This document shows, one piece after another, positions 48,301-51,300 of a stretch of 64,000 nucleotides of DNA. The DNA lies in contig NC_092564.1 of the NCBI RefSeq assembly GCF_037975245.1, positions 12,362,484 to 12,426,483 on the forward strand, in the 5' to 3' direction. The first letter of the stretch is position 1, and each line of letters begins with the position of its first letter. The notes under the pieces were generated by a model. It did no database searches, was not told the DNA's origin, and saw only the letters and a list, made by a program, of their open reading frames with translations. Source of the stretch: Apostichopus japonicus (lineage: Eukaryota > Echinodermata > Holothuroidea > Aspidochirotida > Stichopodidae). The position numbers and the translations under genes were made by a program.

Positions 48301-51300
48301 TAAGCTGTTTCGTGTCCACTAAAAATTGCATTGGACACATTTGAAAGTCCCATATATACATGAGAGAAAAAGAGGGAGAGAGAAAGAGATGGGGGGGGGG
48401 GGGAAAGAGAGAGAAATTGTTCTCAACTGAGACGACAAACTACTTAAACAATTTCGCATGTCATGTTTGTCAGGTCGAGCTAGCCAAAACCTTTCATAGT
48501 TCACGTAAATCATCACGGTTAACTGGACCAAGACGGGCTTTAGAACATTAAATAAAGCCTAAGAACTCTTTGTAACTTTCAAATCCTGTCTTTGCTTTAA
48601 TTTTGTTTCTGCTCTAATTTTGTTGTGTCTTTCCTTTTTCTGATATGACGATACGTTGTGATGTGATGTAATCGCTTATAAGAGTCACATATCTGTCCCA
48701 TTTAGTGTCCCATTTCTGCCTGTTTATATTATCTCTTTGTTTAAGTCAGTTCGGCTAAATGGATTTCTTCATTACCTTCATTTCATTAGTGGTTTGATGG
48801 CTGGACGATGGGTACAGGTTCCTTTCCCAGCTACGAGGATCATCCTCTGAATTTGACTGAAAGAGTGCAGACTGTTTGTCCAGGTGAAGGACGACCTATG
48901 ACCTTTCGTTCCAACCAGAATGCTGCAATGATGACCTTTAAACTCACATCGAGAGGGAGCAGCTTGAAAATAGTATTGGAAACTAAACAGATTCTAGAAC
49001 GTAAGCGTTTTTGTTTCTGTCTCTGTTTGCGTATATATATATATCAGGGGCGTCGGAAGCTATTTGGGATTGGTACGGCAGACCAGAGTGTGGCCATCTG
49101 TCATTATTATCGGGGACGTATGGCAAGCCGTTTTAACATTTACCTATCTATTCTACTTAAGTAGAATTAATTCCACTTAAGAAGAATACAATTAAGCTTA
49201 AGTGAAATGAATTGCACTTAAGTAAAATACAATTAAGCTTAAGTAAAATGAATTGCACTTAAGTAGAATTGCATTTTACTTAAGTTTAATTGTATTCCAC
49301 TTAAGTAAAATTACCACTTTCTTTTAAGCTTAAGTTAAATTTAATTTCACTTAAGCTTAATTGTATTCTACTTAAGTAAAATACAATTCTACTTAAGTAA
49401 AATTTAATTTAGCTTAAGTAAAAGTGTCATTCTTTTTCACTTAAGCTAAATGCATTTTACTTAAGTAAAATTGTATTTTACTTAAGTAGAATACAATTAA
49501 GCTTAAGTGAAATTGAATTTAACTTAAGCTAAATTGTATTCTACTTAAGTAGAATTGTATTTTACTTAAGTAGAATACAATTGCATTTTACTTAAGTAAA
49601 ATTCAATTCTACTTAAGTAAAATACAATTTAGCTTAAGTGGAATTGAAGGATATGGCAAGCCGTTATAACATTTACCTCGTGCGGAGAAGTGGTTGGTCT
49701 GGGGGCAATGTTTACATGGTACCATGCCTTGTGGTACTTCTACTACTAGTACCACTGATTGGTGGCATGTCGTGTTGTAGTCGTTCCCTTGCCCTCAAAA
49801 GTGCTTTTCCAACTGCATCAGCAACAGTTTGCAACGATTTATTGGCTGGCTGCATTTACCAAATGTCTAACGTTCAGACTCAGTGATAAACAAAGCTTTG
49901 CTCCATTTGCTAAGTATGGTGTTATGTTCGTATATACACAACGAAAGCTGGATAAGTATCGCAGAATGGGGGAATGGCCGCAAATGATTACGTAACTAGT
50001 ACGTCTTGAACGTAACTCTATAGGTCTCGCATCACAATTAATTGTTCCATTGACTTACACACTAAACTCATCACTTTCAAGACCTGCCAAAGCATAGATA
50101 GAAGTTTTCATCTGGTATATCCTACCCACCACATGATAGCTGTGTTCTAGTGGCCTATCATGGCACTTGCAAACTTCCATATCATGACCGTTTAGATTAT
50201 GAGCTAGAAGAGGAGCAAGTTTATCACACTGAACCCTTCCATATGCTCGTACGGAGTAATATCAACATTTAACCAAAGATTTTTAAAATGGTTTATATCA
50301 CCTTCGATCCTCCCTATTTTCACACCATCTGTACTTAAAATTATGCTCTTTCATATAAAGGCAGAAAAAACGATGACAGTAAATGATAACATGCTTAAGG
50401 AAGCTTTACATTAGGTACTTTTACCTCTTTTCTGACAATGGTAACCCTATTGAGCGGATGAACACGTGGTGAGGTACCTAAAATAGTATACAGAGTCGGA
50501 CTTCGCGGCAAGTACAGTGACGCAATGAGTAGCATATACTGATTGACCAATCACATTTTACTTAAGCTAAATTGCATTTTACTTAAGTGAAATAGATTGA
50601 CCAATCACATTTCACTTAAGCGTAATTCTATTTCACTTAAGTAAAATGCAATTTAGCTTAAGTGAAATTGAAAAGCCATTTTGCTTAAGTAAAATAGCAT
50701 TTTACTTAAGTAGAATTGAATTTTACTTAAGCAGAATTGCATTTTACTTAAGTAGAATTGAATTTTACTTAAGCAGAATTGTATTTTACTTAAGTAGAAT
50801 TGTATTTTACTTAAGTAAAATACGATGTAGACAAAAACCGTTTGAACTTAAGCTAATATGAATTCCACTTAAGTGGAATACAATTAAGCTTAAGTAAAAT
50901 GCAATTCTACTTAAGTGCAAAACATTTCACTTAAGCTTAATTGTATTCTACTTAAGTGGAATTAATTCTACTTAAGTAGAATAGAGAGGTAAATGTTAAA
51001 ACGGCTTGCCATAGTATAGGGACGCTTGGTAGGTCAAACTACGCTACGCGCCACTATGGTTGGCGCGTAGCGTAATGGAGAAAATTTTGAAAAAAATGCC
51101 TCCCAGATTGCAGGAAATGGCACTTCTCGAGCTTGAAAACAAGACCCCTGCCATGCCAGAGTAGTCACATTTAGCCTACTTGCTTGTTTCATTTTGGTTC
51201 TTTATTTTTTGCCATTTTTTTTCTTAGTGCTACTTTTTTTTCTCTTTTTCTTGGGCCGTGAATATTGCCCCTGTTTATATGTATATATATATATATATAT

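Follow-up and report, generated by a model that had tools for sequence, protein, structure and literature searches.

Palindrome-array arms of a mobile foldback-like DNA family in Apostichopus japonicus, read as rows of predicted protein-binding sites

The feature at positions 49119-51013 of the window (the whole 64,000-nucleotide stretch of Apostichopus japonicus DNA analysed here, C4:12362484-12426483) is a copy of a mobile DNA family. It is likely, judging from its sequence and that of its relatives, to be a young, non-autonomous and internally deleted cut-and-paste transposon of the IS3EU/GingerRoot type, in which the long arms would be rows of predicted sites for transposase dimers that mark and pair the two ends.

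The element is located in an intron of a corticotropin-releasing-factor-binding-protein gene (window 47813-53839), the exon readings of which end at about 48999 and resume at about 53690 (PF05428, E 3e-26; PF23541, E 3e-8). Several other repeats were observed in the window. A perfect inverted repeat of 71 nt with a 19-nt loop lies between two TA microsatellites at 51366-51526, and two stretches that appear similar by eye (GGCGCG ... GCCTCCCAGATTGCAG), at 51030-51130 and 52440-52560, form a second dispersed repeat adjoining the element. Two well-kept tandem arrays are found at 11034-11537 (56 bp x 9, 95% matches) and 21520-22499 (151 bp x 6.5, 98% matches), while a tRNA-like match with anticodon ATA at 18891-18965 may be a tRNA-derived repeat.

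The preliminary description had delimited the element as 49119-51014 and attributed 42 CTTAAG palindromes to its two arms. The count was confirmed, since 43 CTTAAG occur within these limits, of which the left arm (49156-49638) holds 23, the right arm (50561-50976) 19 and the centre a single one, at 50394. The remaining 62 kb of the window contain only 8, and a Markov-1 model predicted 19 per 64 kb on average, with a maximum of 28 in 20 whole-window simulation runs. The start of the element also stood, while its end was moved to 51013, with the right-hand GGGACG beyond it at 51019-51024. Neighbouring CTTAAG are mostly spaced by 20 or 21 bp, with interruptions of 26-37 (Table 1). The units had been called self-palindromic, which is accurate for a gapped symmetry: TTnnnCTTAAGnnnAA, i.e., the core with TT and AA, is present in 41 of the 42 units of the window copy and ATTnnnCTTAAGnnnAAT, in which the outer A and T are also present, in 37. 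The perfect palindrome, however, is limited to the 6-bp core in 19 of 42 units and reaches at least 10 bp in 15. Similarly, the arms had been described as inverted copies of each other. Their outer 125 bp are indeed 91% complementary, but over the whole arms the number of units and the position of the breaks differ, and the two arms match opposite ends of a long relative, at 97% identity each, which rules out that the arms are copies of one another.

Table 1. Features of the window copy (window positions) and of the two long partner elements (contig positions)
Feature	Position	Strand	Remarks
Left target site duplication GGGACG	49113..49118	.	window copy
Left 27-bp terminal inverted repeat, TATGGCAAGCCGTTTTAACATTTACCT	49119..49145	+	
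Left arm: end and 23 CTTAAG	49119..49652	+	counterpart of the transposase-side end of long elements; 97.2% identity to A16 over 535 aligned columns
Inner 27-bp end, TTATAAC variant, at the join of left arm and remainder	49652..49678	+	third copy of the end, in direct orientation, on the inner border of the arm
HECT-side subterminal remnant of a long element	49678..50018	-	85% identical to A16
47-codon reading frame	49712..49855	-	matches the start of a HECT-strand reading frame in long copies; putative exon 1 of the HECT gene
Centre block, 466 bp	50019..50484	.	without match in A16 at E 1e-6; present in the A-type short copies fetched
Right arm region: 19 CTTAAG and right 27-bp end (50987-51013)	50485..51013	-	counterpart of the HECT-side end of long elements; A16: 97.0% over 473 bp, 92.0% over 137 bp
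Right target site duplication GGGACG	51019..51024	.	5 extra bases (GTATA) past the element end
A1, long element, 22,667 bp	C1:12260970-12283636		exact duplication CGGCCG; 17 and 21 CTTAAG in the arms
A16, long element, 21,419 bp	C16:5792413-5813831		exact duplication CGAACC; 20 and 23 CTTAAG in the arms

The mobility of the family was assessed in one assembly of one genome (671,581,487 bases in 35 contigs). With up to three mismatches, the 27-bp end matched 294 + 301 = 595 times and its reversed control 0 + 0 times; because these matches include inner copies, 595 is a number of ends and not of elements. Forty elements with two clear ends each, 38 short and 2 long, were examined in a non-random sample, the copies being the first among the matches listed or those most similar to the window centre. 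Not among the 40 are the hosts of nested insertions and the fragments within L009 and L013 (which are clusters of family members inserted into each other), the other element of L043 and a neighbour with one end in L042; three of the 40, L017-L019, are a single insertion seen three times. TATGG is found at both termini of 39 of the 40 elements (L011 has TATTG at one end), and 33 carry the exact 27-mer at both ends. An exact 6-bp target duplication flanks 36 of the 40, the exceptions being the window copy with its 5 extra bases, L010, in which the duplication is shifted, L042, with one mismatch, and L026, in which it is different. The seventh base agrees in 10 of 34 cases, i.e., at chance level. 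The hexamers on the two sides of the L026 element are unlike, and its right flank shares 428 bp at 99.5% identity with a flank on C15; either ectopic recombination or a duplication could account for the mismatch. Across 33 sites (L017-L019 counted once, A16 omitted, and the duplications of A1/A16 entered manually), the duplication follows the consensus NGSSCN, the second base being G in 27 sites and the fifth C in 30, and the duplicated bases have a GC content of 72% versus 44% in the flanks.

Sites lacking the element provide further evidence of insertion. Among 22 joined flanks, clean gap-free empty sites over all 160 bp were recovered for two insertions, both paralogous, within other members of the family. 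The insertion L009c is nested in a B-type element, the uninterrupted counterpart of which is found in L015 and L022 (99.4%), and L043a is nested in an A-type element for which L026 (100%) and the window copy (97.5%) provide the uninterrupted sequence. The joined flank of L013b gave an empty site with a 7-base gap, and the remaining matches across the junction of the 22 joined flanks were own ends, other family ends or a local repeat (L014), with no further clean empty site. The window copy and L014 on contig C2 differ at 10 of 1,895 bases without any gap, so the family has moved recently. In addition, hundreds of ends sit at different loci, which argues against an assembly artefact. The earlier suggestion of a mobile foldback-like family was thus upheld by the ends, the duplications and the two nested empty sites, including two of the checks that it had named, the genome search with the 27-bp end and a target duplication of constant length.

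Long partners of the short elements were revealed by the Pfam model rva_4 (integrase core), which gave 143 matches in the genome with 0 of 14 controls positive. The match at C1:12277550 has a 27-mer end on either side, one of them mismatched at a single base, and belongs to the element A1, while the best match of the search falls inside a second element, A16; the interiors of the two share long stretches with 97-98% identity. Transposase exons are read on one strand of A1 (PF24764 rva_4, E 3e-75; D(34)E), together with a helix-turn-helix match, HTH_7, at 24.5 bits, barely above the cut-off of 23.8. The opposite strand carries a HECT-type exon (E 1e-11), and A16 has counterparts of both. Between A1 and A16 the HECT exon is constrained, with 1 nonsynonymous and 6 synonymous changes (dN/dS 0.05), and no clear constraint was detected in the transposase exons (dN/dS about 0.5-1.5, from few changes and guessed exon borders). 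One pattern applied to the exons read, a set that is possibly incomplete, detected no HHCC motif, and a PDB sequence search with the transposase core returned nothing credible.

Comparison with A16 suggests how the short copies arose. Positions 1-534 of the window element correspond to the transposase-side end of A16 (97.2%), positions 560-900 to its HECT-side subterminal region (85%), and positions 1367-1503 (92%) and 1423-1895 (97.0%) to its HECT-side end, with no match in A16 for positions 901-1366 at E 1e-6. Because the blocks match the two ends of A16 and the segment between them does not, the short element is, on this alignment, a derivative that has lost internal sequence, retains the two ends and holds 466 bp of other origin. 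As in MITEs and internally deleted derivatives, the transposase is absent and the ends and subterminal regions come from the long element. The inner 27-mer marks the join of the deletion and is preceded in L016-L019 by CGGTCG, which fits NGSSCN, suggesting that another copy had inserted at this site before the deletion. Of the 38 short copies, 31 carry an inner end here, whether or not these extra bases accompany it, and therefore probably go back to a single founder; the remaining 7, all of the B type, have no inner end.

The palindromic units were then compared among copies and between the A and B subfamilies. Logos of 42 A, 41 B and 81 long-copy units share the fixed or near-fixed positions A-T-T-n-n-R-C-T-T-A-A-G-Y-n-n-A-A-T, 18 bp in total, and since the repeat is 20-21 bp long, or about two turns of DNA, 2-3 bp separate neighbouring sites, which lie on nearly the same face of the helix. 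Tests between subfamilies used 26 of the 31 A-type copies (without L016-L019 and L021) and 6 of the 7 B-type copies (without L009d), the consensus arms of which have 23 + 19 cores in A and B alike. In an arm alignment anchored on the cores themselves, with a B subfamily of 6 copies, the consensuses differ at 0 of 246 core positions, 1 of 164 at ±4 and ±5, 13 of 81 at ±6, 23 of 82 at ±1, 112 of 164 at ±2 and ±3, and 96 of 181 in the remainder. If the cores had drifted like non-core positions, 2.9 of 42 would be expected to be intact, whereas all 42 are. One arm has irregular gaps of 29 and 27, the other of 36/37 and 27; where the cores are intact, most A and B copies, like the long copies, show these gaps in the same order, while some copies lack cores or have other gaps.

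The cores are not exempt from mutation in single copies. In ungapped stretches of the A-type copies, 18 singletons were found in 5,438 core site-copies and 81 in 14,910 elsewhere (P 0.054), and a contrast of the McDonald-Kreitman type between singletons and A/B divergence gave P of about 1e-10 (9e-11); a looser count (75/252 vs 220/694, P 1e-21) takes in misaligned stretches and is less trustworthy. Variants common to at least two A-type short copies, which were probably inherited through movement, number 0 in the core, 0 in TT/AA and 23 elsewhere, with 18, 7 and 74 singletons, respectively. The core and TT/AA together thus have 0 of 25 variants shared versus 23 of 97 elsewhere (P 0.004), the pooling having been decided after the footprint was seen, and the core alone has 0 of 18 versus 23 of 104 (P 0.02); in both cases the P values are too small, because the 23 shared variants are non-independent, several of them being linked in one pair of copies. 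This pattern suggests that the palindromes were retained because movement of the element requires a putative protein to hold on to them. From their sequence, the arms are best interpreted as tiled protein sites (ATTnnRCTTAAGYnnAAT), and the conservation footprint supports the earlier idea of many binding sites for a dimeric protein, the binder being putative.

The same sites might instead be operators or enhancers through which a host transcription factor, or a repressor encoded by the element, controls the transposase and HECT genes, and which short copies keep by descent only. This explanation is unlikely, though it deserves some weight. The arms of the long elements each lie immediately upstream of a reading frame: at one end of A16, possible transposase start codons are found at 544 and 562, farther in by 28 and 46 bp than the start of the last CTTAAG at 516, and at the other end a HECT-strand frame starts at 769, 267 bp inward of the last site at 502. 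Moreover, the units of the B subfamily contain CCACTTAAGTGG, which presumably resembles the sites of NK2-type homeodomain proteins. However, short copies have no complete gene and yet never share variants in the core and TT/AA, which points to a role of the sites in moving. Host NK2-type sites were rejected as the cause of conservation, since they require a G after AAGT, and this G occurs in 7 of the 42 A units when one strand is read and in 12 of 42 when the other is. Conservation for movement would leave room for a second role, as the position of the arms just upstream of reading frames makes it plausible that the arm sites may also regulate the element genes in long copies.

It had also been suggested that the arms could nucleate cruciforms, and the dyad symmetry at two levels would be expected if cruciforms or hairpins, in DNA or RNA, were recognised by the transposition machinery. 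Such a structural role is very improbable. Within units, the halves agree no more often than they do after shuffling (A, 145 of 210 vs 142.7, s.d. 5.1; B, 170 of 210 vs 169.1, s.d. 3.0), in a test that covers five bases on each side of the core and, because positions 4 and 5 are near-invariant, rests on positions 1-3. Conservation also alternates by position, as it does with protein contacts. Selection for cruciforms was rejected for want of covariation between unit halves, and for the same reason the dyad looks to have been preserved as a pair of protein half-sites and not as a stem of paired bases.

Nor are the arms at all likely to be functionless, satellite-like arrays grown by slippage and unequal exchange. 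Arm length does vary, the left arm of L018 having 35 CTTAAG compared with 19 in L017 and 20 in L019, and flanking bases changed together in most B-subfamily units. Slippage and exchange, however, would not spare the core and TT/AA while positions 2 and 3 diverge by 68%. L017, L018 and L019 are three segmental copies of one insertion (C3, 7.72-7.82 Mb), and in L018 an arm block of about 450 bp is doubled. The proposal that the arms record their own growth holds only in part, through this extra block; the arms as such correspond to the two ends of the long element type.

Under the preferred reading, that of sites needed for movement, a helix-turn-helix protein would bind each site as a dimer. 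The binder would most likely be the N-terminal part of the element's own transposase, although it could be a host protein. Adjacent dimers would lie on one face of the helix and coat each end with a dimer row, and this row would allow the specific recognition and pairing of the two ends.

The termini and the 6-bp duplications fit the IS3EU/GingerRoot superfamily. IS3EU elements are described with TA..TA ends and usually 6-bp duplications (PMC10045372), and fungal IS3EU termini as TAYGG..CCRTA (PMC12730594), a form matched by the TATGG..CCATA ends of the present family (39 of 40 elements), which shares with that superfamily the 6-bp target duplication (exact in 36 of 40) and, in A1 and A16 with the same ends, an integrase-like DDE transposase (rva_4). 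It differs from the members as described in the open-access literature searched in having about 20 phased palindromes per end, HECT-bearing copies of 21-23 kb and foldback-like short derivatives. Searches of that literature turned up neither IS3EU ends built from arrays of phased palindromes nor an IS3EU element of foldback form.

Foldback elements such as FB and the sea urchin TU have long, internally repeated inverted ends, structural variability and non-autonomous copies. The present family is similar to FB, TU and, as far as it is described, Tetris in all three respects. Tetris differs by its duplications of 8-10 bp, foldback elements being mostly placed in Mutator (PMC4079207), and the 6-bp duplications and IS3EU-type partner found here rule out a Mutator-type foldback of that kind. 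In the Drosophila element Galileo, of the P superfamily, long foldback-like ends contain internal repeats with three reported binding sites for the THAP transposase, proposed to give specificity (PMC3688188). The likeness lies in long, internally repeated ends, those of Galileo holding transposase sites; the family described here has a different transposase and arrays of about 20 palindromes as opposed to the three sites reported. Membership of the P superfamily was rejected, as the long partner encodes rva_4 and THAP had no match among six pieces scanned. Similarly, piggyBac has a 19-bp palindromic sequence near its ends, bound by one domain from each monomer of a transposase dimer (PMC11707139), but it belongs to another superfamily and a long phased array is not part of that description as consulted.

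A second rva_4 family, with three copies (L057, L058 and L059) and a core protein 38% identical, was also inspected. Its presumed end, TATGGTTGGCCG, was placed where the three copies start matching, and just inside it are four ACGCGT in 67 bp, spaced 19, 23 and 19, with no CTTAAG in the array at the one end read. In L057 these four are the only ACGCGT in 8,001 bp. An array scan found one array at each of the three loci and no second ACGCGT array near them, which does not favour arrays at both ends of this family. Genome-wide, ACGCGT arrays do not exceed the reversed control (22 vs 29, forward), so only the position of the arrays at the ends of the second family counts, and they are a lead toward a general rule rather than proof of one. 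For comparison, CTTAAG triplets number 3,373 versus 580 in the reversed control, a weak test, since GAATTC, the control word, is itself present within the arrays. Dispersed ACGCGT arrays with a period of 22 bp and AT-rich sequence between the sites were observed at C12:4336259-4336418, C1:6498979, C9:18553646, C18:2523482 and C19:3612602, and are perhaps another transposon end.

A broader rule can be put forward tentatively, and is rather doubtful at present: IS3EU-type transposons would mark their ends with family-specific arrays of palindromes about two helical turns apart, which in this lineage would have grown into a protein-coated "landing strip" with about 20 dimers at each end, nearly all of its sites being under selection for movement, and foldback arms would be hypertrophied recognition sites rather than structural DNA. 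The role of long repeated arms in foldback-like elements has been in question, and the functionality of the long ends of Galileo is said to "remain uncertain" (PMC3688188: "remains uncertain"). With hundreds of ends and about 20 countable sites per arm, the present family provides an evolutionary footprint at single-base resolution and, together with a candidate binder, the long partners and copies that differ naturally in their number of sites, makes arm function directly testable.
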